Shown: piece by piece, positions 21,617 through 55,266 of the stretch
Layout: each line of letters starts with the position of its first letter
Numbering within the stretch: position 1 is the first letter of the stretch
Source: Brachyspira hyodysenteriae ATCC 27164
GTDB taxonomy: Bacteria; Spirochaetota; Brachyspiria; Brachyspirales; Brachyspiraceae
NCBI RefSeq assembly: GCF_001676785.2
Contig: NZ_CP015910.2
Location: 682,001 to 746,000, forward strand
Direction: 5' to 3'
DNA length: 64,000 nucleotides
Notes under the pieces: generated by a model
Seen by the model: the letters and a program-made list of their open reading frames with translations, nothing else
What the model was told of the DNA's origin: nothing
Databases searched by the model: none
Made by a program: the position numbers and the translations under genes

Positions 21617-23011
21617 TCATTTCAAGAAAAATCTGTTAATATATTCATATAAAAATATTGCTAATACTATAAAAGGAAGTATATAACTAATATAGAATCT
21701 TAATTGACGAGGGAATTTGATGCCTTCTCCTGTATTAGCTTCTTTTAAAAAGTTATCGAATCCCCATCCAAAATCTCTTGTGCAGAAGAATAGAGTTACC
21801 AAAGCACCTAAAGGAAGTATATTATTTGATACTATAAAATCTAGTAAATCCATTATAACAGTACCTTCCCCGAGAGGATTTATATTAGATAGTATATTAA
21901 ATCCTAAAGTTGTTGGCAGACTAAGTATGAATAACATTACAAATAATATAATAGAAGTTTTTTGTCTTGTAATTTTGAATTTATCCATAATAAATGAATA
22001 TATATTTTCTAATACACCTATTATAGTAGTAAGGGCTGCCATTGCTAGGAATAGGAAGAATAATGCTCCCCATAATCTTCCAAGAGGCATAGAATTAAAT
22101 ATATTAGGTAAAGTAACAAAAGCAAGTCCAGCACCTTCACCAGGATTTACACCAAAAGCAAAACATGCTGGGAAAACTACTAGTCCTGCAAATAAAGCCA
22201 CCATAGTATCCAATGCTATAATTATTAATGCTTCTCCTGTAAGAGATTGTTTTTTATCTATATAGCTTCCGAATATAGCCATTCCGCCCTGACCTACACT
22301 TAAAGAGAAAAATGCCTGTCCAATAGCAGCATAAAATATTCCTATGAATCCTGTAAGTCCGTTTCCAAATAATTTATTTAAATCTGGCACCAAATAGAAT
22401 TTTAATCCTTCTATAGCTCCTTTTAAAGTTAATGCTCTGATTATAAGAAGCATTAAAAGTGCAAACAATGATATCATCATAAATTTACTTGCTCTTTCTA
22501 CGCCTTTCTCAAGTCCGAAAGAACATATTATTATACCTATCAATAAACTTATTCCCATCCATAATGTTAATGTAGAAGCACTTCCCAAAACTCCGTTAAA
22601 GAAATTACCAACTTCATTTGCATTAAGTCCTTCAAATCTTCCTGAAAGCATAAAGTAAAAGTATGATAAACACCATCCGCATATAGTTGTATAAAACAGC
22701 ATAAGAAGAACATTACCAAGTATTTGAACATATCCTATTTTATGCCAATTATGTCCTCTCTTTTCGAGTTTTTGAAAAGATGTTGCTATATCATGTCCGC
22801 CTGCTCTTCCAACAGCGAATTCCATTACCATAGGAGCTACACCTAATATGATTATTGATATGATATATAATATTACAAAAGCACCTCCGCCGTATTGTCC
22901 TGTTATATATGGAAATCTCCAAACATTACCCATACCGACCGCACAGCCGGCAGATACCAGTATAAATCCGAATCTGCTTCCTAGTTTTTCTCTTTTTTTC
23001 ACGGTATACAC
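21617..23011 (-). CDS. sodium-dependent symporter of the NSS/SNF family
   Basis: 464 residues with about eleven membrane segments. The first carries AGCAVGMGNVWRFPY (21-35), the unwound sodium/substrate site of neurotransmitter:sodium symporters. The GGAFVILYI and Gln/Ser-rich FYAAIGQAFFSLSVGQGGM segments fit too. Bacterial members import amino acids with sodium; the specific substrate cannot be told. The short-loop form matches bacterial Tyt1/MhsT-like proteins. A structured repeat element lies directly upstream. Confidence 0.9.
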   Translation of the reverse strand: MYTVKKREKLGSRFGFILVSAGCAVGMGNVWRFPYITGQYGGGAFVILYIISIIILGVAPMVMEFAVGRAGGHDIATSFQKLEKRGHNWHKIGYVQILGNVLLMLFYTTICGWCLSYFYFMLSGRFEGLNANEVGNFFNGVLGSASTLTLWMGISLLIGIIICSFGLEKGVERASKFMMISLFALLMLLIIRALTLKGAIEGLKFYLVPDLNKLFGNGLTGFIGIFYAAIGQAFFSLSVGQGGMAIFGSYIDKKQSLTGEALIIIALDTMVALFAGLVVFPACFAFGVNPGEGAGLAFVTLPNIFNSMPLGRLWGALFFLFLAMAALTTIIGVLENIYSFIMDKFKITRQKTSIILFVMLFILSLPTTLGFNILSNINPLGEGTVIMDLLDFIVSNNILPLGALVTLFFCTRDFGWGFDNFLKEANTGEGIKFPRQLRFYISYILPFIVLAIFLYEYINRFFLK

Positions 23012-23097: not shown

Positions 23098-23409
23098 CCC
23101 CGCCCTTTATTTTTTAAGTATAATTTACAATTTATAATTTAAATTATATTTGCTGCTATATTAGAAATTTCAGCGCCCGCCCAAATTGGAATTAGGTTTA
23201 AAAAAAATTATTTAACGCACGGTGAGCTTAGCTACAAATATAATTTAAATTGCATTGTTAATTTGTCTATATTTTTTATTTCGTTTAGCGTGCGTTGAGT
23301 AGATATTAATTTTAATAAAAACTAGGGTGGGGCACTATATTTTCTTTATAGGCTATAAGGAATAGAAAGTAAAAATTTTATATTAAATCGATAAAGAAAA
23401 AGGGTGGGG
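23098..23409 (+). repeat. nested inverted-repeat element, copy 1
   Basis: About 312 bases built of three nested complementary arm pairs. Outer: CCCCGCCCTTT (23098) with AAAGGGTGGGG (23399). Middle: CCCGCCC (about 23175) with GGGTGGG (23325). Inner: AACGCACG (23214) with CGTGCGTT (23289), followed by GAGTAGATAT. In outer and middle pairs the single mismatch is G opposite T, so a rightward RNA could pair fully. Copy 2 at 32400-32703 has the same order, with inner arms also 75 bases apart. It fills most of the 426-base gap 23012-23437 and contains no gene I can see. Confidence 0.8.
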
Positions 23410-23437: not shown

Positions 23438-24034
23438 TTATTTTGATGAGTATATCTCTTTTATTTTAATTTCATCATAAAAAGAAATTCTGTATGAATA
23501 ATGCTTCATAACATTTTCTAAAGTATCCAAATCAGGCTTTATATATAATGATACACTTGCAAGCTCCGAAGACCACCAAATTATATACTCTTCAAAAGGT
23601 TTTTTATAAAATGAATAATGCTTTACATCTGTTTTTGTTATTTGACCATATTGAAAAGTAAGCTCTTCTTTTATATTGTTAATGTCGGCCATAGTTACAG
23701 GATTGTAGAATGAAGGATTATTATATATATCACCTATATGATTGCATATCTCTATTCTATAAAGTTCATTATTGTAGAAATATAAATAATATGCTAATTT
23801 TTGAGTATCATTTTTATATATATTAAGAACAGTATTATTTTTTAATTCAAATGATTCAAAAAAATCAGCATATACATTTAGATTATAATTAGTAATTTTA
23901 TTATCAGCTTCTTCAATGCTCATTCCAAATTTCAAATCTTTATAACCATTTAGGTCAAAAAGCTCAGGCAATTGAGCAAATACTATATTTATGTTGATTA
24001 ATAAAATTACTATTATATATTTTATATATTTCAT
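23438..24034 (-). CDS. secreted protein of unknown function
   Basis: 198 residues. The signal peptide MKYIKYIIVILLININIVFA is followed by a segment with LKFGMSIEEADNKI, a motif seen in many small periplasmic proteins of unknown function in which a short helix follows a 'fGms' turn. Several amphipathic strands follow. No catalytic motif. The start overlaps the stop of the LOG-family gene by four bases (ATGA), so translation is probably coupled. Confidence 0.6.
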   Translation of the reverse strand: MKYIKYIIVILLININIVFAQLPELFDLNGYKDLKFGMSIEEADNKITNYNLNVYADFFESFELKNNTVLNIYKNDTQKLAYYLYFYNNELYRIEICNHIGDIYNNPSFYNPVTMADINNIKEELTFQYGQITKTDVKHYSFYKKPFEEYIIWWSSELASVSLYIKPDLDTLENVMKHYSYRISFYDEIKIKEIYSSK

Positions 24035-24715: not shown

Positions 24716-25042
24716 TTATTTTATTATTACAGCAGTACCATAAGCAATAACTTCTGTAGTACCTTCCATTACAGATGAAGATGAATAATGTATTCCTATT
24801 ATAGCATTAGCACCTAGTTTTTTAGCTTCTTCTATCATTCTTTTAGTTGCTATTTCTCTAGCTTCATTAATCATCTCTGTATATCCCTCAACTTCACCGC
24901 CTACTATATTTTTAAGACCTGCAAGCAAATCTTTTCCTATATGTTTTGCCTGAGCTATATTTCCTTTAACCAAACCCAATAATTCATAATTATATCCATT
25001 AGGTAAATAATCAGCTGTAAATAATTTTATATCGTTATCCAT
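24716..25042 (-). CDS. YbjQ/UPF0145 family protein, copy 2
   Basis: 108 residues of a single YbjQ domain, a small pentamer-forming fold. ARE.ATKRM.EEAKKLGANAIIGI and the C-terminal strand EVIAYGTAVII are characteristic. Some call it a heavy-metal-binding domain, but no metal ligands are apparent here and its function is unknown. It is a tandem paralogue of the next gene upstream; the two stop and start 17 bases apart. Confidence 0.85.
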   Translation of the reverse strand: MDNDIKLFTADYLPNGYNYELLGLVKGNIAQAKHIGKDLLAGLKNIVGGEVEGYTEMINEAREIATKRMIEEAKKLGANAIIGIHYSSSSVMEGTTEVIAYGTAVIIK

Positions 25043-25058
25043 TTTTACTCCTCATAAA

Positions 25059-25385
25059 TTATTTCAATACAATAGCAGTACCATAAGCAACAACTTCTAC
25101 AGTTCCAGGAAGTACAGAAGATGAAGAAAAATTAATTCCTATTATAGCATTAGCATTTAATTTTTTAGCTTCTTCCAACATTCTTTTTGTAGCTATTTCT
25201 CTAGCTTCATTAAGCATTTCAGTGTAACTTTCAACTTCACCACCTACTATATTTTTAAGACCTGCAAGTAAATCTTTTCCAACATGCTTAGCTAAAGATA
25301 CATTTCCTTTAACTAATCCTAACATTTCATAATTATAATTGCTTGGTAAGTAATTAACAGTAAACATTTTAATATCAGCACTCAT
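25059..25385 (-). CDS. YbjQ/UPF0145 family protein, copy 1
   Basis: 108 residues, the same length as its neighbour and differing mainly at conservative positions (FTVNYLPSNYNYEMLGLVKG here, FTADYLPNGYNYELLGLVKG there). Both keep GKDLLAGLKNIVGGEVE. A recent tandem duplication. AGGAG precedes the ATG. It is the first gene of the leftward group ending with the secreted protein at 23438. Confidence 0.85.
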   Translation of the reverse strand: MSADIKMFTVNYLPSNYNYEMLGLVKGNVSLAKHVGKDLLAGLKNIVGGEVESYTEMLNEAREIATKRMLEEAKKLNANAIIGINFSSSSVLPGTVEVVAYGTAIVLK

Positions 25386-27050: not shown

Positions 27051-27992
27051 TTATAGTTGTACTTTTTTTATTAGGCTAGTAGAAAGTTCTGGAATATAAA
27101 TAACATTATTAACTAAATCTATATCAGCAACTCCGCTTAAAGAACCTTCGATTTTTTCTAATTGCTCTTTAGTATTTAAATCAAATACATATATGCATGC
27201 ATTGTTATTAGCACCATTTTCACCCCAATCAGAAACATATAATTTACCATTAGCTATAGCAATACCATCTAAAGCACCTGCACCTAATCTTGAAGCGGTC
27301 CATTTAGTTAATCCTGTACCGTCTGTTTTTAAAGTATAAATATCGCCTCCATTAGCATCGCCTCCGAATGTACTTCCAGCTATATATAATACTCCATTAT
27401 CTAGTAATATACCATTAGCACCAACTACTTCTGGTACAGATGAAGTTATAGATAATGCTGAATTATTATCAACTTTAACAAAATGAACTGTAGAAGCTCC
27501 TGTATCAGTTAGGGCTACAGTTGTTGGATCTATTACTACTGTATCATTTAAGAATTTAGAACCTTCTATAGGGAGTTTAGTTATTATTTTATTTTCTTTT
27601 ACATTAGCTAAAACTAAATTTCCTGTCATAGAGCTGTCATTTACTTGATCAGGAATAATAATAATATCATCAGTTAAAAAAGAAAAACCTTTAGGACTGT
27701 CTAATTGTCCTTCAAAAAGTTTTTGAGGATTAGAACCATCTTCATTAGCAACAATTATGAATCCGTCTGCTGGAGCATTAGGATCTCCCAAATTAGCTAT
27801 ATATAATTTTCCGTTTTTAAATTTAACACTTTCAGGTGCAGCTAATCCTTCAACATTAATACCTACTGCTTCTTTTTTGGTTGGTTCAGCTGCTGCTGTA
27901 TTATTAGATGCTGGTGCTTTTTCTGCATTATTTGAGCATGATACAGCGAATAAAAAAGCTGATAAAAGTATAGCATTACAAAATTTATTCAT
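27051..27992 (-). CDS. beta-propeller lipoprotein (SMP-30/NHL-like)
   Basis: 313 residues. The lipoprotein signal ends AVSC with Cys19, then an Ala/Pro/Thr-rich linker to about 45. After that come blade-like repeats with the pattern ..G.LYIANLGD, ..GKLYVSDWGENG and ..GVLYIAGSTFGGD, as in SMP-30/gluconolactonase-like propellers. It is anchored on the periplasmic or outer side; binding or enzymatic role unknown. It is transcribed divergently from an Rrf2 regulator, with a dyad between them that could control both. Confidence 0.75.
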   Translation of the reverse strand: MNKFCNAILLSAFLFAVSCSNNAEKAPASNNTAAAEPTKKEAVGINVEGLAAPESVKFKNGKLYIANLGDPNAPADGFIIVANEDGSNPQKLFEGQLDSPKGFSFLTDDIIIIPDQVNDSSMTGNLVLANVKENKIITKLPIEGSKFLNDTVVIDPTTVALTDTGASTVHFVKVDNNSALSITSSVPEVVGANGILLDNGVLYIAGSTFGGDANGGDIYTLKTDGTGLTKWTASRLGAGALDGIAIANGKLYVSDWGENGANNNACIYVFDLNTKEQLEKIEGSLSGVADIDLVNNVIYIPELSTSLIKKVQL

Positions 27993-28071
27993 TTGTAAGT
28001 TCTCCTTATTAGTAAAAATTTTTATTAAGTTTATAGTATTTCAATAATAATATCAATAAAAAATATAAAAC

Positions 28072-28096
28072 AATTGTTACCAAAATGATTACAATT
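28072..28096. promoter_or_regulatory. dyad in the lipoprotein/Rrf2 divergent region
   Basis: AATTGT (28072) and ACAATT (28091) frame an imperfect palindrome of 25 bases, similar in size to Rrf2-family operators. It lies between the divergent starts at 27992 and 28160. Confidence 0.4.
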
Positions 28097-28159
28097 ATTT
28101 TATGTTATTCTATATATATTTATTGACTATTATAATTTTTTGATTATATTTATAATATT

Positions 28160-28600
28160 ATGAAAATTAATACTAAATTATCAGTTGCTGCTCATATAGT
28201 TTTATGTATAGCATTTTTTGAAAATGAAGGCACTACATCTAATTTGCTTGCCAAAAGTGTAAGAACTAATCCTTCTATAATAAGAAAGATTTTATTGAAA
28301 CTTCAGGATGCAGGAATAGTTGAAACTAATAAAAAGGGAAGTAAACTTATAAAAGATGAAAAAGATATAACGCTTCTTTCTATATATGAAGCTGTTTTCA
28401 CAGAAGAGGAGAGGGGGCTTTTTAATTTTCATGAACCTAATCATATATGTCCTGTAGGATGTGCAATGTTTGATGTTCTGGGTGAAGAGTTTAATAATGT
28501 AAGGCTTGATTTTGAAAAGTCTATGTCTAAAATAACAATTAAACAAATAGCTGATGAAGTGAGAAAAAGAAAAAAGCATCTGGATTTTATGAATAAATAG
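28160..28600 (+). CDS. Rrf2 family transcriptional regulator
   Basis: 146 residues. The N-terminal winged helix (TKLSVAAHIVLCIAFFENEG, then IRKILLKLQDAGIVETNKKG) is Rrf2-like. The sensor region HICPVGCAM has Cys97 and Cys101, fewer than the three clustered Cys of IscR/NsrR, so an Fe-S cluster is doubtful. YwnA-like members with a single sensor Cys motif are a closer match. No ribosome site is seen and the -10 is very near the ATG. The likely target is the divergent lipoprotein gene. Confidence 0.82.
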   Translation: MKINTKLSVAAHIVLCIAFFENEGTTSNLLAKSVRTNPSIIRKILLKLQDAGIVETNKKGSKLIKDEKDITLLSIYEAVFTEEERGLFNFHEPNHICPVGCAMFDVLGEEFNNVRLDFEKSMSKITIKQIADEVRKRKKHLDFMNK

Positions 28601-28614
28601 TTTTTTAGATTATA

Positions 28615-29328
28615 TTAATTTTTTATATTTATAATGCTTATTCTGTTTCCGTCTAATTCTATAATATTTTCTTTTGATAATCTGTTTAATTCTCTTGACA
28701 GTGCGCTTCTGTCTGCTGATATAAACTCTGCTAATTTATCTCTATTGAATGGTATAATTATATTTTGAGATTTCTGAATATTTGACATATATTTAAGGTA
28801 TATTATTATTTTGCTTCTTAAACTTTTCTGGCTGAGTATATCATTTTTAAAAGCTAGGAATTTATTTTTATCAGATATTACTCTTAATAAATTATGCAGA
28901 AATATATTTTTGATATTATTATCATTAGCTTTAAATATATTTTCTATATTTATTTTTATTAATTCAGTATTTTCTAATGCAAGAGCCTGAATAGATGATA
29001 TTTTATTTGTAGAAAAAGCAAATGCTTCTGCAAATATATCACCTTGATTTAATATATTTACAATATTTTTTCTTGTATCATCATATTCTTTTGAAATTTC
29101 TACTTTTCCTTTCAATATAATATATATACTTTCTACTATATCTCCGGTATCTATTATTATATTTGATTTTTTAAAAGATTTTTTTTGTATTTTAAAATCA
29201 TCTAAAATATTAATGATTTCATCTTTACTTATATTGTTAAATACTTCTGATTTTATTAAAATATCTATATAGTCATTCATCATATGTTCAATTAAAATAT
29301 TAATATTATTGTTAGTTAATGCTAACAT
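28615..29328 (-). CDS. Crp/Fnr family transcriptional regulator
   Basis: About 237 residues. A cyclic-nucleotide-binding-type beta roll (about 45-135, with IILKGKVEISKEY and LNQGDIFAEAFAF) is followed by a dimer helix and a C-terminal winged helix (FNRDKLAEFISADRSALSRELNRLSKENII). The canonical cAMP-binding Arg block is not evident, and there are no N-terminal Cys for an Fe-S cluster, so the signal is unknown. Start is uncertain: ATG at 29328 or ATG-ATG at 29283/29280, none with a ribosome site. It is divergent to the sialic-acid-type transporter operon. Confidence 0.82.
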   Translation of the reverse strand: MLALTNNNINILIEHMMNDYIDILIKSEVFNNISKDEIINILDDFKIQKKSFKKSNIIIDTGDIVESIYIILKGKVEISKEYDDTRKNIVNILNQGDIFAEAFAFSTNKISSIQALALENTELIKINIENIFKANDNNIKNIFLHNLLRVISDKNKFLAFKNDILSQKSLRSKIIIYLKYMSNIQKSQNIIIPFNRDKLAEFISADRSALSRELNRLSKENIIELDGNRISIINIKN

Positions 29329-29496
29329 TTTTTTATAAAAAATCAATATATTTATTATTTAATTATGATTTTTTATATTATTATAATAATTTTTGCAACT
29401 TTAAGTAATAATAAGTAATAAATAAATGATTTTTAGTACGTTTTTTGTATAATTCTAATTTTTTTATTATAAAATTTAATTTATTTTAATATTTTA

Positions 29497-29525
29497 TTGA
29501 CAACGCAAATTTATTTGACTATACT
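29497..29525 (+). promoter_or_regulatory. promoter of the symporter/NanM-like operon
   Basis: TTGACA (29497-29502), a 17-base spacer, TATACT (29520-29525). The predicted start of transcription lies inside the palindrome that follows. Confidence 0.7.
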
Positions 29526-29528
29526 ATA

Positions 29529-29546
29529 ATTGTTCACGTGAACAAT
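29529..29546 (+). promoter_or_regulatory. perfect 18-bp operator-like palindrome
   Basis: ATTGTTCACGTGAACAAT is fully self-complementary and covers the expected +1 of the symporter operon, a position suited to a repressor dimer. The regulator is unknown; the neighbouring Crp/Fnr protein is a candidate. Confidence 0.7.
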
Positions 29547-29568
29547 ATTATTTATAGGAGAACTAAAT

Positions 29569-31101
29569 ATGGCTTGGCATTGGTTTGACTGGGTAGTCAT
29601 CGGACTATATTTCATCGTAATGTTTTTAATTGGTATGTTCTTTGCTAGAAGAACAAAATCTACAGATGATTATTTCAAAGCTGGCGGAAGGGTGCCTGCT
29701 TTGGTAACAGCTATGAGTATTTACGCTACAGCTTTATCATCTATTTCATTTATAGCTATACCTGCTTCTGTTTATAATAACAGCTGGCTGCTTGGTATGG
29801 CTCCTCTAGGAATTATTTTAATGGTATTATGGGCTGCTTATACTTTTGTACCATTCTTTAGAAGAGTTAATGTTACTACTGCTTATGAATATTTAGGAAG
29901 AAGATTTGATAATTCTTTCAGACTTGTCGGCAGTTTGACATTCATACTTTTCCACGTTGTAAGAATGGCAATAGTTATTTATCTTCCTACATTGGCAATA
30001 CAGCAGGTACTTCCTACTCTTAACCCTGTTTTAATAACAGTTATAGTATCAATATTCTGTGTTGCTTATACATCTATGGGAGGTATAGAAGCAGTATTAT
30101 GGTCTGATGCTATACAAACAGTTGTACTTCTTTTAGGTGCTTTCTTAGTAATTATAGTAGGTTTCTCATCTGCTCCTGAAGGAATAGGTCAAGGATTCAA
30201 ACTTTTAGCTGATGACGGAAAAATCATAAGCCCTGATTTCTTCTCATTAGACTTAGCTAAATCTAGTATTTGGGTTATGATAGTTGGAGGATTTGTTAAC
30301 TCTATTTATTCTTATGTTGGCAGCCAGGATATAGTTCAAAGATATGCTACAAACAAAGATGAAAACGAATCTAAAAAAAGTTTGTTTATGAATGTTCCTT
30401 TACTTTGTACTAGTGTAATAATATTCATAGGTATGGGTTCTGCTTTATATATTTACTTCCATTTCAAAACTACATTACCTGAAAATGTTAATGGTAATGC
30501 TATACTTCCTTATTTCGTTGTAAATGCTTTACCTGTTGGTATATCTGGACTTGTAATAGCTGCTATATTTGCTGCTGCTCAATCTACAGTATCATCTAGT
30601 TTGAACTCTGTTTCTACTTGTATGACTGCTGATATATTAGAATATCTTAAACCTGGAATGGAAGATGCTTCTAAATTAAAATTTGCTAGATTATCAAGCT
30701 GGATAGTAGGTATATTCAGTACTTTACTTGCCATTTACTTCATATTTAATGGTCAAGGTGATATGTTCTTATATTTCCAAGCTATAACAGGTCTTTTAGG
30801 CGGTCCTATAGCTGCTGTATTCTTGGTAGGTATATTCTTTGATAAAGTTGAAAGTAAAGCTGTATGGGTTGGATTTGCTCTTTCTGTTATAGTAGCATTC
30901 TATGTAAGTGATCCTGCTGGTATGCTTACTAAATTTATACCTGGATATGCTAAACCAAAAATCTTTGAGTTTATGATTTCATTCATAATCATAGGTATTG
31001 GTGTAGTTGGTTCTTTATTAGCTTCTTTTGCTTTTGGAAAACCATCTGCAGAAAAAATAAAAGGTTTAACTTATTCTACTACTATTAAAAATCAAAAATA
31101 A
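29569..31101 (+). CDS. sodium:solute symporter (SSS family), probably for sialic acid
   Basis: 510 residues with about thirteen membrane segments. The N-terminal DWVVIGLYFIVMFLIGMFFA, RRTKSTDDYFKAGGR after the first segment, and the ATALSSISFIAIPA and AAAQSTVSSSLNSVSTCMTAD segments fit the SSS/LeuT-fold transporters. SSS members paired with NanM-like mutarotases are known importers of N-acetylneuraminate in other bacteria, and the next gene here is such a protein. The substrate is therefore inferred from context. AGGAG precedes the ATG. Confidence 0.88.
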   Translation: MAWHWFDWVVIGLYFIVMFLIGMFFARRTKSTDDYFKAGGRVPALVTAMSIYATALSSISFIAIPASVYNNSWLLGMAPLGIILMVLWAAYTFVPFFRRVNVTTAYEYLGRRFDNSFRLVGSLTFILFHVVRMAIVIYLPTLAIQQVLPTLNPVLITVIVSIFCVAYTSMGGIEAVLWSDAIQTVVLLLGAFLVIIVGFSSAPEGIGQGFKLLADDGKIISPDFFSLDLAKSSIWVMIVGGFVNSIYSYVGSQDIVQRYATNKDENESKKSLFMNVPLLCTSVIIFIGMGSALYIYFHFKTTLPENVNGNAILPYFVVNALPVGISGLVIAAIFAAAQSTVSSSLNSVSTCMTADILEYLKPGMEDASKLKFARLSSWIVGIFSTLLAIYFIFNGQGDMFLYFQAITGLLGGPIAAVFLVGIFFDKVESKAVWVGFALSVIVAFYVSDPAGMLTKFIPGYAKPKIFEFMISFIIIGIGVVGSLLASFAFGKPSAEKIKGLTYSTTIKNQK

Positions 31102-31133
31102 TATAAAGTAGAATTATTATAAGGAAATAAAAA

Positions 31134-32297
31134 ATGAAAAAAATTGGTTTAATATTATTATTTATATTTACTATATTTGCTTTAAGCTGTTCAACTAATA
31201 CTGCATCTTCATCATCAAATGCTAATGTATTAGATTCAAAAGTTGATAAAAAAATAGTTTGGGAAATGGGCGGACATTTACCTGCTCAAACAGGAATGGA
31301 AAAAAACATTGGTACTGCCGGAGTTTTATATGGTTCTTTAGGCGGTAAATATATAGTTGTTGGCGGCGGTGCTAATTTCCCTGAAGAGTCTGTACTTAAT
31401 GGCGGAGCTAAAAAAACTTATTCTGATATTTACATGCTTGAAGATAAAAACGGCGTATTAGAAGTTGTTGAGCATATTAATTGGGAAAATGAGTTGGGAT
31501 ATGGTGCTTCTGTAACTGTTACAAATGGAATATACTATATAGGCGGTTCTTCTAATCCTGAAGCTGATGATGATATATTATTTATTACATTAAAAGATAA
31601 TAAATTAAATGTTGAAAAAATAGGCGACTTACCTTTCACATTACAAAATGGTGTAGCTGTTTATAAAGATAATAAATTATATGTTATCACTGGTAAACAA
31701 GCAGGTAAAGGAAGCAACAAAGTTTGTGAGTATGATTTGACTACTAAAGAAGCTAAAGAATTAGCTCCTGTACCTGGTGAGGCAAGCAGAACTCAGGCTG
31801 TTGCTCAGTTATTAAACGGAAACATATATGTATTCAGCGGCGGTGATGCTACTGCTTATACTGATGGTTATAAATATGATTTCGCTAATGATACTTGGGA
31901 AAAAGTTGCTGATGTAGCTTTGAATGGTGAAGGAATATCTTTGCTTGGTGCTGTATCTGTTAAACTTAATGAAACAGAAATGCTTGCTATAGGCGGATTT
32001 AACAAAGCTGTTTATGATGATGCTGTTTATAATTTAGGAAATCTTAAAGATGCGGCATTAGCTGATTTCAGAGCAAAATATTTTGGTGCTGATCCTTATG
32101 AATTTAATTGGAACAGTAACATATTAATTTATAATTGTGAATCTAATACTTGGAAAACAATAGGGGAAGTTCCTTTTGATGCTCCTTGCGGAGAAGGTTT
32201 AATATTGATAGGAAACAAAATATATTCTATCAATGGTGAAATCAAACCTGGTATTAGAACTGATAAAATGTATGTTGGTACAATTATGGCTAAATAA
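31134..32297 (+). CDS. kelch-type mutarotase lipoprotein, NanM-like
   Basis: 387 residues. The lipoprotein signal ends FALSC with Cys19. A kelch beta-propeller follows, with repeated glycine doublets: KYIVVGGGANFPE, IYYIGGSSNPE, KLYVITGKQAGKG, NIYVFSGGDA and EMLAIGGFNKAV. The GGGANFP start and the overall order fit the cyclically permuted mutarotases related to N-acetylneuraminate epimerase NanM, which speeds alpha/beta interconversion of released sialic acid before uptake. Lipid anchoring is unusual compared with the soluble periplasmic NanM. It lies 32 bases after the symporter gene in the same operon. Confidence 0.84.
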   Translation: MKKIGLILLFIFTIFALSCSTNTASSSSNANVLDSKVDKKIVWEMGGHLPAQTGMEKNIGTAGVLYGSLGGKYIVVGGGANFPEESVLNGGAKKTYSDIYMLEDKNGVLEVVEHINWENELGYGASVTVTNGIYYIGGSSNPEADDDILFITLKDNKLNVEKIGDLPFTLQNGVAVYKDNKLYVITGKQAGKGSNKVCEYDLTTKEAKELAPVPGEASRTQAVAQLLNGNIYVFSGGDATAYTDGYKYDFANDTWEKVADVALNGEGISLLGAVSVKLNETEMLAIGGFNKAVYDDAVYNLGNLKDAALADFRAKYFGADPYEFNWNSNILIYNCESNTWKTIGEVPFDAPCGEGLILIGNKIYSINGEIKPGIRTDKMYVGTIMAK

Positions 32298-32327
32298 AGA
32301 CACTATCTATTATTAAAAGTTTTCCAT

Positions 32328-32366
32328 AAATAAGGGCTTACTTAATAAAAAGTAAGCTCTTATTTT
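32328..32366 (+). terminator. terminator of the symporter/NanM-like operon
   Basis: AAATAAGGGCTTACTT pairs with AAGTAAGCTCTTATTT (one G-T pair), followed by a T-run. Confidence 0.88.
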
Positions 32367-32399
32367 TTATTATTAATAATCAAAATTTATATTTTAAAT

Positions 32400-32703
32400 C
32401 TCGCCCTTTATGCTTTTTATGTTATATGCATATAAAGTTTTTCTATATTTTTTGCTTAATTCATAAAAGCATGCCCGCCCAATTTTTATTATATTTTTTA
32501 TTTTATTTAACGCACGCTGAACTTCGCTATGAATATAATTAAATTTGAATTATTAATTTATCTTTATTTTTTATTTCTTTTAACGTGCGTTGAGTAGATA
32601 TCAATTCTAATCAAAACTAGGGTGGGGATAAAAATAACAGATGAAGTTTAAAATAAATATTAGATAAAAACGACATAGTTGATAGAAAACCTAAAGGGTG
32701 GGA
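32400..32703 (+). repeat. nested inverted-repeat element, copy 2
   Basis: Same architecture and orientation as copy 1 at 23098. Outer arms are CGCCCTTTA (32402) with AAAGGGTGGGA (32693). Middle arms are CCCGCCC (32474) with GGGTGGGG (32620). Inner arms are AACGCACG (32509) with CGTGCGTT (32584) followed by GAGTAGATAT. Inner arms are 75 bases apart and inner-to-middle right arms 36 bases apart, both exactly as in copy 1, although much of the sequence between has drifted. It fills the gap between two convergent genes; no coding potential is seen. Confidence 0.8.
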
Positions 32704-32741
32704 TTATAAGAATAGCCCAATAATTTAATTATGATTCAAAA

Positions 32742-32960
32742 TTATTCCATATCTTTAATAGTTACAACTAATCCAGCAGCTTCAAGTAATGATATAATAT
32801 ATAATTTATCTTTATCTTCTATATCTATAGCCATATTGCATACGCCAAATACAGGTTCAGGAGCAGGGCGAACAACAACTTCTATACCAGCGTCTAGTAA
32901 AATTTTTTCAGCCTTAATCAAATCTCTTGGAGTTTGTAAATAACAAAAACTTTTTACCAT
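32742..32960 (-). CDS. DUF3343 putative Se/S carrier-like protein
   Basis: 72 residues matching DUF3343: F..TP.DLIKAEKIL..AGIEVVVRPAPEPVFGVCNMAI with the single conserved Cys near residue 41, then DIED.DKLYII..LL. The family is often found beside YedF and cysteine desulfurases in selenium-using bacteria and is thought to carry selenium or sulfur on the Cys. It is the last gene of the yedF-desulfurase-DUF3343 run, two bases after the desulfurase stop. AGGAAAG precedes the ATG. Confidence 0.8.
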   Translation of the reverse strand: MVKSFCYLQTPRDLIKAEKILLDAGIEVVVRPAPEPVFGVCNMAIDIEDKDKLYIISLLEAAGLVVTIKDME

Positions 32961-32962
32961 AA

Positions 32963-34078
32963 TTACTTTCCTAATACATTTATTAAATATTCTAAATCTT
33001 CTTTCGTTGTATAAGGTGAAAAAGAAAATCGTAAAGCACCGTTATCATTTTTATAAAAGTTATGGGCTAAAAATGAACAGTGAAAACCATATCGGCATTC
33101 TATATTATAATCTTCATATAGCTTATGAGCAAGATTAGACATATTTATACTGCTGTCAATATCTGCTATAGAAAATAAAAATCCTTGAGTATCTTTATTT
33201 TTAGACCATATAACTTTATATTTATTCATATCTTCTATTTTTTTTATTGTGTAAATTATATCATCTATATTAATATTCCAATTAGGTCTGTTCTTCAATG
33301 CTGCTAAAAGTCCTATTATTCCAACAGTGTTTGGAGTACCAGATTCATATATTTCAGGTATACTATACGGAGTTTCATAGCCATCACCAAAACCGCCTCC
33401 AAAATATGCCGGATTTAACTTTTCAGGATTTTTAACATAGAAACCTCCTGTACCTGTAGGGCCAAGAAGTCCCTTATGTCCTGTAAAAGCTATAAAATCT
33501 ATATTCCATTCATCTGCTTTTATATCATGTATGCCTACAGATTGGGTAGCATCCACAAGTAATGGTATATCTCCTATAGTTTCTTTTATTTTTTTTATAG
33601 GCTGTATAACTCCGCTTATATTACTTTCCATATTAATAATAACTAATGATATCTTTTCTTTTTTTATTATTTCAGAAAGCGCTTCTATGTTTACTATTCC
33701 TCCATCTAAAGATGGTATTATTTTATACTCTACATTTTTATTTTTACTTAATTTATGTATTGGTCTTACTACGGCATTATGTTCCAAAGCCGATATTAAG
33801 ATTTTGCAGTTATTTAAATCCAGTCCTATAAGTATATCATTTATTGATCTTGTAGCCCCTGGTGTAAATACTATATTTGAGGCATCTTTTACCCCCAAAA
33901 AGTTTTCAGCTAATAAATCTCTGCATTCTTCTATTTTTTGAGTGGTTTCTTTACCTCTTTTAGTATTAACTCTTCCATAAGTTCCGCCTATATTCATTAA
34001 AAAATTATACATTTCTTCTGCAACTTCTTTCGGCTTTGGAAAACTAGTAGTGGAGTTATCAAAATAATAATTTTTCAT
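32963..34078 (-). CDS. cysteine desulfurase (class V aminotransferase)
   Basis: 371 residues. YFDNSTTSFPKP at the N-terminus, SALEHNAVVRP (His near 100, stacking on PLP), LVDATQSVG and FTGHKGLLGP with the PLP-binding Lys202 are present. The catalytic Cys is Cys334 in YGFHCSFLAH, matching group II (SufS/CsdA) layout. It releases sulfur or selenium from cysteine/selenocysteine. Placement between yedF and a DUF3343 gene suggests delivery into selenium metabolism rather than general Fe-S assembly, since no suf genes are adjacent. Confidence 0.88.
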   Translation of the reverse strand: MKNYYFDNSTTSFPKPKEVAEEMYNFLMNIGGTYGRVNTKRGKETTQKIEECRDLLAENFLGVKDASNIVFTPGATRSINDILIGLDLNNCKILISALEHNAVVRPIHKLSKNKNVEYKIIPSLDGGIVNIEALSEIIKKEKISLVIINMESNISGVIQPIKKIKETIGDIPLLVDATQSVGIHDIKADEWNIDFIAFTGHKGLLGPTGTGGFYVKNPEKLNPAYFGGGFGDGYETPYSIPEIYESGTPNTVGIIGLLAALKNRPNWNINIDDIIYTIKKIEDMNKYKVIWSKNKDTQGFLFSIADIDSSINMSNLAHKLYEDYNIECRYGFHCSFLAHNFYKNDNGALRFSFSPYTTKEDLEYLINVLGK

Positions 34079-48757: not shown

Positions 48758-48825
48758 TAACCTCAATTTAAAATTGGCTTTTTGACAAAGTTAAAAATTT
48801 TTAGTATACACAGAAATTAAAAATT

Positions 48826-48948
48826 CCCGCCATGGTTTTTTATTAGTTTTATTATGCTTTTACCGCACGCTATGCGCATTTATATTATAATACGATTCGT
48901 TAATTTTAATTTTTTTATATTAATAAAATCTACTTACCGTGCGTTGTG
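48826..48948 (+). repeat. degenerate copy of the nested inverted-repeat element
   Basis: CCCGCC (48826), CCGCACG (48863) and CGTGCGTTG (48938) keep the order and the roughly 75-base inner spacing of the elements at 23098 and 32400. The outer arms, the GGGTGGG right arm and the AGTAGATAT tail are missing. Confidence 0.5.
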
Positions 48949-48985
48949 GAAATTATGTATAGAAAAAGAATTTTATTTATCTGTT

Positions 48986-49770: not shown

Positions 49771-50721
49771 TTATTTTACTATTTCTTTTATTATTCTATG
49801 GAAATTTTTATATTCTATCTTTTCTATTTCATCATCATTGAAACCGGCTTCTTTTAACTTTATTATAATATCATAAGATTTAGATGCATTTTCTAGTCCT
49901 TTTATATAAGGAGCATCTTCATCTTCAAAATATTCATTATAGTCAAAACCTATCCCTATATGATCTATTCCTATTTTATCAGCTATATATTTTATATGGT
50001 CTATGGCTCTATCTATGTTTTGTTTTTCTTTATTTTCATCAATGAAGCCTTTATAAGAATTAAATCCTATAACTCCATTAACATCTCTTATAGCTTTTAA
50101 CTGTTCATCTGTAAGATTTCTCATACTTTTGCATAAAGTTCTGGAATTGGAATGAGATGCTATAATAGGTGAGGATGTAATATCTATAACATCAAAGAAA
50201 GATTTATCATTTAAGTGAGATACATCAACTATCATGCCTTTATCCTGCATTTTCTTTACAGCTTTTTTTCCTAATTGAGTTAATCCTCTTGAAGAATCTC
50301 CTCTCACTCCTGTAGCTAATTTATTTTCTTCATTCCAAGTAAGACTAGCATGTCTTGCTCCATAATCATAATATTCATCTATCAAATCAATATTATCATC
50401 TATAGATATAAGCCCTTCAAATCCTATGAATATATATAATTTATTTTCTTTTTGTGCCTTTAGAATATCATCATAGTTTTTTGCTATTAATATGATATCA
50501 TTAATATATTCAAGTTCTTTATTTATAGAGTTTTGAATTTCTCTTACTCTTTCCAATGCTCTGTCATAATTTTTCGGTTCAGTCCATATAACAAATATAG
50601 AACCGCCTATTTTACCTTTTATCATATTATTATAATGATATTTTTTTATAATATTATTTTCGCCTTTAAATGTTTTTACAGTAACATCAGTCCATATATC
50701 TGAATGAGCATCAAAAATCAT
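49771..50721 (-). CDS. membrane dipeptidase family (M19)
   Basis: 316 residues. DAHSDIW (metal ligands His/Asp at 5-8), the bridging Glu in FIGFEGL near 113, IVDVSHL near 177, SPIIASHSNSRTLCKSMRNL near 200 and HIGIGFDYNEYF near 255 follow the renal dipeptidase family layout. It is a two-zinc hydrolase for dipeptides, often with D-residues. No signal peptide, so cytoplasmic. GAGG precedes the ATG. Two ECF S-component-like genes lie directly upstream on the same strand, so imported peptide-like compounds may be its substrates. Confidence 0.9.
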   Translation of the reverse strand: MIFDAHSDIWTDVTVKTFKGENNIIKKYHYNNMIKGKIGGSIFVIWTEPKNYDRALERVREIQNSINKELEYINDIILIAKNYDDILKAQKENKLYIFIGFEGLISIDDNIDLIDEYYDYGARHASLTWNEENKLATGVRGDSSRGLTQLGKKAVKKMQDKGMIVDVSHLNDKSFFDVIDITSSPIIASHSNSRTLCKSMRNLTDEQLKAIRDVNGVIGFNSYKGFIDENKEKQNIDRAIDHIKYIADKIGIDHIGIGFDYNEYFEDEDAPYIKGLENASKSYDIIIKLKEAGFNDDEIEKIEYKNFHRIIKEIVK

Positions 50722-50747
50722 GTTTATTTGCCTCTTAATTATATCGA

Positions 50748-51332
50748 TTAATTTTCGTCATCATTGGTATTTAAATCAGTTATACGCTCATTTTTTTGAA
50801 ATAGAATAATTTTTTTTATTGCTATATATACAATAAGGCAGGATAATACTTTATCAAGTATATTTGTTAATAATCTCATCATAAAAGATGCCTGGAAGAA
50901 TCCAAAGCCATTTTCATTTAATAGTTTTATGAAACTATCTATTGTTGTACCTGTAAATCCGTCAGATAAAATTATTGATATAGGAGTTCCTATTAAAGGT
51001 GATATTATTCCGATGATAGTTCCGGATATTATAGCTGTTATAATACCAAATTTAAATTTTTTTGCTGCAATACCAATTATTATTCCTATCAATGCATTTA
51101 CTATTGCAAAATTTAAATGTGAATAGCTTATAAATATTGATATTATGAGATTAGTCAATATACCTACAATAGCACCGTAAATAGGTCCTAGCAGAACAGC
51201 CGATAAAATAGTGCCTACAGAATCCAAAAATAGAAATGGTATTTTTAGCATCAATACTATAAATGTTAAAGCAAAATTTATTACTATTCCTATAAAGGCT
51301 ATTAATATATTGTATTTTAAATCATTATTCAT
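50748..51332 (-). CDS. ECF transporter S component-like protein, copy 2
   Basis: 194 residues with five to six membrane segments. LKIPFLFLDSVGTILSAVLLGPIYGAIVGILTNLI is the block typical of small substrate-binding (S) subunits of energy-coupling-factor vitamin transporters. Substrate unknown. The ATG at 51332 is preferred over a TTG at 51344. It lacks a ribosome site, but TATACT lies 12 bases upstream. It ends 27 bases before the dipeptidase gene. Confidence 0.72.
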   Translation of the reverse strand: MNNDLKYNILIAFIGIVINFALTFIVLMLKIPFLFLDSVGTILSAVLLGPIYGAIVGILTNLIISIFISYSHLNFAIVNALIGIIIGIAAKKFKFGIITAIISGTIIGIISPLIGTPISIILSDGFTGTTIDSFIKLLNENGFGFFQASFMMRLLTNILDKVLSCLIVYIAIKKIILFQKNERITDLNTNDDEN

Positions 51333-51472
51333 AATATAAACCAAAGTATAATTGACTTGTTTTTAATATACAATGATAAACTTTATTTTTCAATAGTTTT
51401 ATTTAATATAATTATTTATTTTTATCAATATGGTATGTATTTATGATATTTTTATTAAAGAGTAAATTAAAG

Positions 51473-52039
51473 TTATTTATAATGATGATTATTTTCTTTG
51501 CTTAAAAATGGTATTGATTTTATAGCCATTGTTACTATTATAGAAGATAATATCTTATCTATCATAGAACTTAATACTGTACTCATAGTTATAGATATAA
51601 TAAGACTTTTTCCGCTATTATAAATAAGCTGAACAAAATTATCTATTGGTTTATTAGTTACTCCTTTGGCGGCAATTATTGCTATAGGAGCTGCTACAAT
51701 GGCAGAAATTATACCTATTATTATTCCTGATATTATTGAAACTTTCATTTTTGAAAAGTCATGTTTTCTTGCTATTACTCCTGCTGTCAATCCTATAAAA
51801 ACATTTACCACTGCAAAATGCAAATTAACATAATCTATAGTCATAGAAATAATAAAATTTGTAGCAATACCTACAACCGCACTATATATAGGTCCTAGCA
51901 GAACAGCAGTTAATATTGTACCGGCAGAATCCATAAATAAAAATGGTATTTTTAATATTATAACTAAATGTCCCATTATAATATTTGCTAAAATACTAAT
52001 TATTATTATAGCAATATCATATGTAATTTTTCTTTTCAT
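51473..52039 (-). CDS. ECF transporter S component-like protein, copy 1
   Basis: 188 residues, five to six membrane segments, paralogous to the next gene. LKIPFLFMDSAGTILTAVLLGPIYSAVVGIATNFI corresponds to the same block there. The ATG at 52039 has GGAA seven bases upstream; the longer frame starts with TTG and is rejected. No EcfA ATPase or EcfT gene is in the window, so these would share a general energising module encoded elsewhere. Confidence 0.72.
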   Translation of the reverse strand: MKRKITYDIAIIIISILANIIMGHLVIILKIPFLFMDSAGTILTAVLLGPIYSAVVGIATNFIISMTIDYVNLHFAVVNVFIGLTAGVIARKHDFSKMKVSIISGIIIGIISAIVAAPIAIIAAKGVTNKPIDNFVQLIYNSGKSLIISITMSTVLSSMIDKILSSIIVTMAIKSIPFLSKENNHHYK

Positions 52040-52122
52040 AAATAATTCCAATATACTCTATTATATTTATTATGATTTTCGTTTTTTAATTTATATATGT
52101 GAGTAAAATATTTATTGATTAT

Positions 52123-52157
52123 AAAAACCCCCTAATAAAATAAATTTATTAGGGGGT
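52123..52157 (-). terminator. terminator of nox
   Basis: ACCCCCTAATAAA and TTTATTAGGGGGT are perfect 13-base arms with a short loop. On the minus strand a T-run follows. Confidence 0.9.
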
Positions 52158-52189
52158 AAATATTCTTAAACTAATTATATTTTCTATAA

Positions 52190-53548
52190 TTATTTAGCAG
52201 TATAAGCAACCATAGTCATCCAAGATAATGGTTTGTTGTAGTGAGGTAGGAAGAAGAAATCTGACAATGCAAATTGATCAACAGTCATACCATTTTGTAT
52301 AGCAAGAGAGAATGCATGAATAGCTTCAGCATGATTGTGTTTAGAAGCTATTTGAGCACCTAATAAACGTCTGCTGCCTTCTTCATAAATGATTTTTACT
52401 AAAACATCTTCATTAGTAGGCATAAATTCTGGTCTTTCAGAATCTTTGAAGAAGTTAGATTTTACTTTTAATCCTTTTTTCTTAGCAGTTTCTTCAGACC
52501 AACCAGTAGAAGCCATATTGTATCCAAATACACAAATAGCATTAGAACCTTGAGTACCGCAATATTCAACATGTTTTCCTAAAGCATTATTAGCAGCAAC
52601 AATACCCATTCTTACAGCATTAGTAGCTAAAGCAATATATTCTTGTTTTTCAGAAGCTCTTGAATATACAGTAGCACAGTCACCTATAGCAAATACATCA
52701 GGATCTTTAGTAGTTTTCATAGTAGTATCTACTACAATAGCACCATTAGGTAAAGTTTCTAAATAATCTTTATAAAGTTCATTATTAGGTCTGAAACCAA
52801 CAGACATAACTACCATATCTACATCATAAGAACCTTTGTCAGTAACAACTTTTTTAACTCTGTCATCACCTTCAAATTTCTTAACAGTTTCACCTAAATG
52901 CATTTCTATGCCAGCTTCTTTGATTCTTTTTTCAGCTTCATCAGTGATTTCTTTATCAAAGTAGTTAGCCATAACTCTAGGCATAGCTTCCATTAAGATA
53001 ACTTCTTTACCATGGTTTTTGAATGCTTCTATAAGTTCAACACCTATGTATCCAGCACCAACTACCATAACTTTTTTAACATCTGGTTTAGCTATTTCAT
53101 CAATAATTTCTTGTCCTTGCTGATAAAGCTTAGAGAAGAAAATACCTTTTTTAAGTCCGTAAGTAGTTCCTTCTTGTTTTAAGCCTTCGATAGGAGGAGT
53201 TACAGGCCAAGAACCAGTAGCAAGAATAAGTTTATCGTAAGTGTCTTCAAACTCTTTTCCTGTTTTTAGTTCTTTTACACATAATTTTTTGTTAGCCCAG
53301 TCTATTTTAGTAACATCATGTCCCATATAAACATCGATGCCTTCACCTCTCAAACTTTCAGGACTAGCATAGAATAATCCTTTAGGATCTTTAACTACGC
53401 CACCAACCCAAAGTGCGATACCGCAGGCTAAGAAAGATATATTATCATTTCTATCGTAAGTAACTACTTGACAATTAGGATCTGTAGCTTTCAAAGTTTT
53501 TGCTGCCCATGTACCAGCATGGTTACAACCTATTACAATAACTTTCAT
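52190..53548 (-). CDS. nox: NADH oxidase (FAD-dependent, water-forming type)
   Basis: 452 residues. VIVIGCNHAGTWAA is the N-terminal FAD-binding loop and SFLACGIALW holds the redox Cys42 that cycles through sulfenic acid. VMVVGAGYIGVELIEAF near 160 is the NADH-binding Rossmann loop, and VFAIGDCATV near 285 is the second FAD contact. A C-terminal dimer domain completes the fold. It reduces oxygen with NADH, protecting an oxygen-tolerant anaerobe and regenerating NAD. This enzyme is well known as Nox of Brachyspira and its gene is a common diagnostic target there. Monocistronic, with a strong promoter, AAGGGG site and terminator. Confidence 0.94.
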   Translation of the reverse strand: MKVIVIGCNHAGTWAAKTLKATDPNCQVVTYDRNDNISFLACGIALWVGGVVKDPKGLFYASPESLRGEGIDVYMGHDVTKIDWANKKLCVKELKTGKEFEDTYDKLILATGSWPVTPPIEGLKQEGTTYGLKKGIFFSKLYQQGQEIIDEIAKPDVKKVMVVGAGYIGVELIEAFKNHGKEVILMEAMPRVMANYFDKEITDEAEKRIKEAGIEMHLGETVKKFEGDDRVKKVVTDKGSYDVDMVVMSVGFRPNNELYKDYLETLPNGAIVVDTTMKTTKDPDVFAIGDCATVYSRASEKQEYIALATNAVRMGIVAANNALGKHVEYCGTQGSNAICVFGYNMASTGWSEETAKKKGLKVKSNFFKDSERPEFMPTNEDVLVKIIYEEGSRRLLGAQIASKHNHAEAIHAFSLAIQNGMTVDQFALSDFFFLPHYNKPLSWMTMVAYTAK

Positions 53549-53596
53549 AATAATTTAACCCCTTATTAAAAATAATCTAATATAAAATTGGTGTTT

Positions 53597-53625
53597 ATTA
53601 TAGTACAAAAAAAATACTTAGTCAA
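53597..53625 (-). promoter_or_regulatory. promoter of nox
   Basis: Minus strand: TTGACT (53620-53625), a 17-base spacer, TATAAT (53597-53602). The remainder of the 363-base gap up to 53911 is A/T-rich with no other recognisable feature. Confidence 0.75.
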
Positions 53626-53911
53626 GTTATATTATATGTAACTTAGTAAATTTTAATAGTTTTAGTATGTTTTTTATATAATGATTTCACTAATTATCAT
53701 GAATTATGATAATTAAAAGCATTAAATGTATATAAATTTTACAAAAAATGTTTATATTATAAAATATTGGCATTTATGTTTATAAAATATAGTTTTAATA
53801 TTCTTTTATTGCTATATGAATAGCAACATTTATAATAAATATAATGTATTGATATTTATGCTTTTTATGCTATATTATAAAAAAGTTGAAATTTATTATG
53901 GATTTAATATT

Positions 53912-55126
53912 ATGACAAATTTTAATGAATATTTTTTAATGGAAGAGAAAGATGTATTACTTTATGTAAAAAATAAATTAAAATATTTTTCTCAGAATGA
54001 TAATATTACTTGTAAAGAAATAGGCGATGGAAATATTAACTATGTATATAGAATAAGTAATGGTAAAGATTCCATAATACTTAAGCAGGCAGGAGTTCAT
54101 ACTAGAAGCAATTCGTCAGGAAGAATACTTGATATTAACAGAAATGCAAGAGAGGCTGAGGTTTTATCTTTTTACGGCAGCATACTTCCAGATTTGGCTC
54201 CTAAAATCATTTCTATAGATAGAGTTATGAATTTATTCGTAATGGAGGATTTGAAATCTTTTCTTGTACTTAGAGATGCTTTGATGAAAGGTCAAATATA
54301 TCATCATTTACAGGAGCAGATAACAGATTTTTTAGTTGAAACTACATTATCAACAGCCGATTTCTTTATGGATCCATTCACTAAAAAAGAAAATGTTGCA
54401 AAGTATACTAATAAAGAACTTTGTAAAATAAGTGAGGAATTAGTATTTAGAGAACCATTTTTTAATGTTCTTAAAGAAAATGTTTTTTCTGAATCATTAA
54501 ATAAATTTGTTGAAGATAATCTATATAATAATAAACAGCTTCAATTAGAGGCGGCTAAATTAAAGTATGAATTTATGAACAATCCTCAGGCTTTAATACA
54601 TGGAGATTTGCATACAGGATCTATATTTGTTGATGAAAATTATATTAAAGTTATGGATTGTGAATTTGCCTTTTACGGACCTATAGGCTATGATTTAGGT
54701 ACTATTATGGCTAATTTCATATTCTCTTATGTTTACCATTTTTATGTTACTAAGGATAGAAATTATACTTCATTCCTTTTCAAGGTAATTGATGATATTT
54801 TAAGGCTTTTTAAAAATAAATTTATTACCAAATTTTTGCATGAAAGTAATGATATATCAGTACAAAATGATTATTTCATAGAATATTATTTACTTGAGGT
54901 ATTAAAAACAGGATTTGGTATATGCGGACTTGAATTGTTAAGAAGAACTACAGGGTGTGCTAGGGTAAAAGAAATAGAGTCTGTTGCTGATGATGATATG
55001 AGAAGTAAAATAGAATATACGCTTTTAAATATAGGTATTGAATGTTTATCTTATAGAGACAGGCTTTCTGAAGAAGAAAAGTTTATGAAATTTATAGACA
55101 ATATAATTGAAAATATTGATTTATAA
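53912..55126 (+). CDS. mtnK: 5-methylthioribose kinase
   Basis: 404 residues from the ATG at 53912 (MTNFNEYF). The frame is open from 53816, but those 32 residues are unlike the family. GDGNINYVYRI (ATP loop), MEDLKSFLVLRDAL, ISEELVFREPFFN, HGDLHTGS with the catalytic Asp near 232, and DCEFAFYGPIGYDLG match MtnK throughout; DPEF is more usual than DCEF. It phosphorylates methylthioribose in salvage of the methionine by-product methylthioadenosine. mtnA follows 140 bases downstream; no further salvage genes are near. Confidence 0.9.
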   Translation: MTNFNEYFLMEEKDVLLYVKNKLKYFSQNDNITCKEIGDGNINYVYRISNGKDSIILKQAGVHTRSNSSGRILDINRNAREAEVLSFYGSILPDLAPKIISIDRVMNLFVMEDLKSFLVLRDALMKGQIYHHLQEQITDFLVETTLSTADFFMDPFTKKENVAKYTNKELCKISEELVFREPFFNVLKENVFSESLNKFVEDNLYNNKQLQLEAAKLKYEFMNNPQALIHGDLHTGSIFVDENYIKVMDCEFAFYGPIGYDLGTIMANFIFSYVYHFYVTKDRNYTSFLFKVIDDILRLFKNKFITKFLHESNDISVQNDYFIEYYLLEVLKTGFGICGLELLRRTTGCARVKEIESVADDDMRSKIEYTLLNIGIECLSYRDRLSEEEKFMKFIDNIIENIDL

Positions 55127-55266
55127 TCATTTAATATATTAATTTTTAAATAATTTAAATTATTATTTGATAAACTATAAAATAAAGTTTTATTATATAT
55201 TTTTTGGTGAGTTTATATATAACAATAATAAGCAATAATAAATAAATTATTATTTTGGAGTTTTTT

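Follow-up and report, generated by a model that had tools for sequence, protein, structure and literature searches.

The window, a stretch of 64,000 nucleotides of the chromosome of Brachyspira hyodysenteriae ATCC 27164, holds intergenic elements built of three complementary arm pairs placed one inside the other, and the question raised by this locus is what kind of element this is. A preliminary description had suggested selection on an RNA structure or, alternatively, a non-autonomous mobile element. Its anatomical claims were borne out: all three arm pairs of the first copy are present where it had placed them, the second copy repeats their order with one base changed in the outer left arm (CTCGCCCTTT), and in both copies the inner arms are 75 bases apart and the inner and middle right arms 36 bases apart. 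As a nested inverted repeat, the element had been described correctly and incompletely, since what looks like a nested pair is a single register of an array that is periodic; the window contains a third, partial array of this kind (Table 1).

Table 1. Arrays and their boxes in the window (positions counted from its first nucleotide)
Feature	Position	Strand	Remark
Copy 1, full array A B C C' B' A'	23098..23409	.	within window
Copy 1 box A (CCCCGCCCTTT)	23098..23108	+	
Copy 1 box B core (CCCGCCC)	23176..23182	+	
Copy 1 box C (AACGCACG)	23214..23221	+	
Copy 1 box C' (CGTGCGTT)	23289..23296	-	
Copy 1 box B' core (GGGTGGG)	23325..23331	-	
Copy 1 box A' (AAAGGGTGGGG)	23399..23409	-	
Copy 2, full array A B C C' B' A'	32400..32702	.	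within window
Copy 2 box A, 1 substitution (CTCGCCCTTT)	32400..32409	+	
Copy 2 box B core	32474..32480	+	
Copy 2 box C	32509..32516	+	
Copy 2 box C'	32584..32591	-	
Copy 2 box B' core	32620..32626	-	
Copy 2 box A'	32693..32702	-	
Third array, partial; C at 48864, C' at 48938, flanking boxes decayed	~48798..48960	.	genome position 730798-730960

Copy 1 lies between a sodium:neurotransmitter symporter gene (21617-23011, minus strand) and a 198-aa ORF (23438-24034, minus strand), and its site carries orthologous arrays in eight further Brachyspira genomes, at 81–88% identity. Copy 2 is flanked by convergent genes (31134-32297, plus strand; 32742-32960, minus strand) and is located immediately past a terminator-like hairpin that belongs to the first of them; as this separate hairpin is found at the site both with and without the array, the array itself is not an intrinsic terminator. 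Two convergent genes have their 3' ends close to the third array. Elsewhere in the window, two adjacent 108-aa ORFs (24716-25015 and 25059-25358) are tandem duplicates with 80% DNA identity.

The arrays are composed of three boxes, with the consensus sequences CCCRCCCTTT (A), CCCRCCCAAG (B) and CGCACG (C). The half-unit, about 172 bp in length, consists of box A, box B 77–78 bp further on and box C 37 bp beyond B, and neighbouring half-units point in opposite directions, meeting at two kinds of centre, C-C' (74 bp) and A'-A (43 bp, or 41 in one lineage), giving the periodic string A-77-B-37-C-74-C'-36-B'-77-A'-43-A-77-B and onward, with a period of about 345 bp. This grammar is followed in 760 of the 786 box-to-box steps in four genomes. 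Spacings vary by only about 1–2 bp, although the half-units are just 65% identical: the A-B spacing is 76–79 bp in 102 of 107 half-units and the B-C spacing 36–39 bp, again in 102 of 107. In the subfamily of genome G016, the spacings are shifted as a set (A-B 79–80, A'-A 41). Arrays are 100–800 bp long with several boxes each, the commonest being A B C C' B' A' (36), A B C C' (20), C C' B' A' (19) and C C' B' A' A B C C' (15). Their termini are not fixed; starts fall at A (79), C (59) or B' (22), ends at A' (81), C' (58) or B (19), and short arrays such as A-B or C-C' alone exist. Arrays gain or lose whole periods, and at one orthologous site the B'A' of G000, the genome of the window, is longer by exactly one period in G012. 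Two half-unit types, mostly G/G/GT versus A/A/CA, tend to alternate, and for this reason the arms rarely mirror each other perfectly. The CCCNCCC box has G or A at position 4, and in 45 of 47 A'A junctions the two sides carry different bases there (Fisher p 2e-11); C arms of the same class are rare (4 of 55 in G000, versus 15 expected). A local tandem expansion, with five array cores within 1.6 kb, was seen in G007 (2494037-2495625).

That copies 1 and 2 represent a repeated element was confirmed far beyond the window. The pattern CGCACG-N-CGTGCG-N-GGGNGGG has 114 matches in G000 (chromosome of 3.04 Mb) versus 0 for a reversed control, and 52 arrays were detected by profile search in the initial 800 kb of this genome. 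Among 26 Brachyspira genomes searched, the box pattern occurs 26–181 times per genome in 23 and has no matches in G006, G009 and G021; it is found 0–2 times in about 270 other spirochaete genomes, a distribution with which a DNA search of 40 relatives agrees. The array family is restricted to most of one genus, Brachyspira. Matches in IMG/VR, one each on many contigs, were treated as chance. The earlier impression that the element matches nothing known also held for the libraries and papers searched: Rfam gave no match, and no description of the repeat was found in Brachyspira genome papers of the open literature.

Comparison of orthologous arrays separates boxes from spacers. In 15 arrays shared by G000 and G012, 354 of 366 box G/C sites are identical, against 453 of 660 spacer G/C sites (97% versus 69%), and for arrays shared by G000 and G019 the values are 205 of 218 and 197 of 371, gaps excluded; the requirement for an intact box in the query lowers the expected change by about half only, so that the contrast stands. 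Box G/C sites being far better conserved than spacer G/C sites, selection acts on the boxes in place. Most arrays are vertically inherited, since, of the 16 G019 arrays whose orthologous site could be recognised in G000/G012, 14 have an array there. Overall identity is 70–92% in most orthologous pairs, above the 65% seen among unrelated half-units, and this speaks against the arrays having been replaced by copies from other sites.

Strong centring of the arrays on parS and the GC-skew origin, and not on dnaA, is seen in three of the four complete genomes. With distances measured from parS, the parS half of the chromosome holds 46 of 54 array clusters in G000, 29 of 30 in G016 and, counted from a plus-strand list, 42 of 51 in G019 (KS p 5e-9 to 6e-8); in G007 the arrays are spread evenly relative to parS (KS p 0.37). 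The origin was placed independently by pairs of parS-like sites and by gene-strand-corrected third-position skew, and the Brachyspira origin has been reported not to be linked to dnaA (Hafstrom et al. 2011, PMC3163572). The converse reading of a terminus-centred family, with dnaA opposite the arrays, is ruled out by the strand-corrected skew, the parS pairs and the same report, dnaA not being at the origin. The dnaA gene (1174304 in G000, as the DnaA C-terminal domain; 1242 in G016; 2957824 in G019) lies 0.77–0.98 of the way from parS to its antipode in G000, G019 and G016, and about 0.53 of the way in G007, so that depositing contigs from dnaA misplaces the origin. Origin centring of the arrays could partly reflect shared ancestry combined with rearrangements symmetric about the origin, which have been described (PMC3163572). 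A single ParB_N match was found in each genome, array-less species included, and no extra ParB/Noc-type protein. Because G006, G009 and G021 have ParB without arrays, and G021 parS pairs as well, the arrays are not needed for ParB-parS and are dispensable at the genus level. Separate from the arrays, GGGNGGGNGGGNGGG tracts that are possible G-quadruplex motifs occur at L033:7856, L036:6368 and L130:15130 (near parS in G012).

Boxes at fixed distances, the usual clustering around the origin and selection that keeps the boxes intact make the arrays look like protein-binding arrays, not RNA. On this basis, we favour, with a probability of roughly 0.45, the reading that they are host-maintained arrays of protein-binding sites in double-stranded DNA that organise the origin-proximal chromosome. 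One or more putative sequence-specific proteins would bind the boxes in phase, and the resulting complexes might organise or mark this part of the chromosome for anchoring, segregation or division timing, in a mode perhaps like that of Noc or SlmA sites, although the site is different and larger. It is a more tentative suggestion that the arrays constitute a new class of chromosome-organising DNA, phase-constrained, multi-box and origin-centred, which may be read by a putative Brachyspira-specific DNA-binding system that a few species have lost or never acquired. Should the arrays be bound by protein, they would form a new origin-proximal site system comparable with parS, Noc and SlmA, for which the array-less species offer natural controls. 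They are a large, regular and selected non-coding feature in a genus with animal pathogens among its members, numbering from tens to more than 100 per genome in most of the species searched; they mark the true origin where dnaA misleads and coincide with some genome rearrangement ends.

The main rival is selfish spread without host function, in which the arrays are a modular interspersed repeat of the BIME, BOX or MITE kind, propagated by a putative transposase or recombinase and by homologous recombination, and the boxes are recognition sites of the enzyme. This we regard as rather unlikely, and such spread could coexist with a later acquired function. It accords with the high dispersed copy number, the G016 subfamily with its shifted spacing, the exact gain or loss of one period, the avoidance of divergent gene pairs and a 5.8-kb inversion (G000 27852-33674 versus G012 50330-56193) with arrays at or near both ends. 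Sites with and without the element were compared, and that of copy 2 is cleanly empty in five other Brachyspira genomes (G008, G010, G011, G015 and G022); in the alignment of empty and filled sites the AT-rich junction is too ambiguous to resolve a target-site duplication. Against selfish spread stand the variable array ends and the vertical inheritance of old arrays with boxes conserved in place, a pattern not expected if transposition alone were selected. The RAYT-type Y1 transposase (PF01797), present in 5 of 14 control genomes, was found in 0 of the 26 Brachyspira genomes, which also rejects membership of the RAYT/BIME system. Genes between neighbouring arrays, inspected by eye, are ordinary (a peptidase, a transporter, leucyl-tRNA synthetase and similar) and include no obvious transposase, so that a reading of these genes as cargo was dropped. 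Of the proposal of a non-autonomous mobile element, dispersal, clean empty sites and a lineage-specific subfamily survive, and the variable ends, the lack of a RAYT transposase or integron integrase among the genes found and the purifying selection on boxes at resident sites speak against it.

Gene context bears on a further alternative, that the arrays are DNA sites at the ends of transcription units, for gyrase or another topology enzyme as in enterobacterial BIMEs, which would absorb supercoils between convergent genes. The 52 arrays of the 800-kb sample are essentially intergenic, a few of them overlapping called gene ends; 23 are in convergent, 25 in tandem and 4 in divergent contexts, compared with 34, 113 and 56 among the 203 gaps of at least 200 bp. 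In a set of 150 arrays the contexts are convergent in 58, tandem in 66 and divergent in 26, and boxes are close to 3' gene ends (median 69 bp). This arrangement fits topology-enzyme sites; it also weighs against the favoured protein-binding reading, a preference for convergent genes being usual for tolerated insertions too (PMC3049150). Such sites alone account neither for the origin gradient nor for the absence of arrays from three species of the same genus, and we consider this alternative distinctly improbable.

A structured RNA or RNA 3' element, forming a long hairpin through A/A', B/B' and C/C' pairing, deserves very little credence. Copy 1 does fold far better than its shuffles (z -5.2), most full copies have one strand or both that fold well, and the preliminary description was accurate in noting the G-T pair in both GC arm pairs of copy 1 and the better folding of its rightward RNA (the z-score of -5.2 is for the plus strand, against -2.6 for the other). 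Good folding of copy 1 is, however, expected from any inverted repeat. No pairs changed on both sides, covariation was below all 500 of 500 shuffles, and complementarity between the left and right halves of an element does not exceed, and often falls below, that between halves taken from different elements; selection on RNA structure, as proposed at the outset, fails on the absence of compensatory changes. Position 4 of the A'A arms is anti-matched, with 23 G-T and 22 A-C pairs, 0 G-C and 2 A-T. Boxes without an inverted partner are as well conserved (92 of 96 sites, a set that includes a few sites from a G-tract) as paired ones (149 of 156). The polarity of the arrays is independent of the direction of neighbouring genes (p 0.78), and Rfam holds no match. 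Covariation, anti-matched arms, partnerless boxes and polarity together lead us to reject RNA structure as the selected property, and a strand-directional element, whether KOPS-like or a 3' UTR, is rejected since polarity is related neither to replichore nor to gene direction.

Array-flanked gene blocks are reshuffled between species, and the blocks between three G016 arrays are found at other loci in more distant species. Of 28 synteny block ends, 10 have an array no more than 300 bp away, versus 12% for random intergenic gaps, an enrichment that is modest because some of the 28 ends are opposite sides of a single masked array. These observations, the inversion bounded by arrays and the loose likeness of the C box with its flank (TTTAACGCACG / CGTGCGTTGAG) to integron core sites are compatible with recombination sites, attC-like or for inversion, that shuffle gene blocks near the origin, but this is the least credible of the alternatives, given that plain homologous recombination between repeats yields the same pattern, that the core-site GTT has in many cases been lost (CGTGCGG) and that an integron integrase (TIGR02249) is found over the curated cut-off in 0 of the 26 genomes, which disposes of attC membership too.

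The arrays are closest in kind to BIMEs and BOX elements and resemble Noc and SlmA sites in chromosomal distribution (PMC2817692, PMC3049150, PMC4331003); they share some defining features with each system compared and lack others. Like the REP/BIME elements of enterobacteria and Pseudomonas, for which protein-binding sites have been reported, they are present in many extragenic copies, with modules of alternating orientation, two alternating linkers and a variable repeat number. They differ in having a module of about 172 bp with three separate boxes where BIMEs have a single palindrome of 20–40 bp, in residing in genomes without a RAYT/Y1 transposase, in their anti-matched arms, with no palindrome kept by compensatory mutation, and in their origin centring in three of four complete genomes. 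With the boxA-boxB(n)-boxC elements of Streptococcus, they have in common a composite, modular and intergenic nature and over-representation between convergent genes, whereas a BOX element keeps boxA (5') and boxC (3') as fixed outer modules around a variable boxB and is modelled as a folded RNA, and the arrays end at any junction and display no RNA covariation. Noc has about 70 sequence-specific sites over most of the chromosome and none in the terminus region (PMC4331003); the arrays are similarly concentrated away from the terminus in G000, G016 and G019, but not in G007, and are multi-box structures of 100–800 bp in contrast to the single short palindromes of Noc and SlmA. They are origin-proximal like parS, yet their boxes lack the parS sequence and separate parS-like pairs mark the Brachyspira origin. 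As in MITEs and Correia (NEMIS) elements, we find AT-rich intergenic sequence, inverted outer arms and empty sites; unlike those, the arrays have no fixed terminal inverted repeats, their number of periods varies and their internal boxes are under selection.

Two other repeats were encountered in the same genomes. A second, shorter inverted repeat has CGCACG and CGTGCG separated by 38 bp and lacks boxes A and B (L149:8456, L160:13249, L160:13569, L160:19394 and L071:15820), and a different dispersed AT-rich repeat with AAAAAGTTGCAAAAAGTGCAAGTAT occurs in several Brachyspira intergenic regions (L123-L126, and L149 at about 8.2–8.4 kb).
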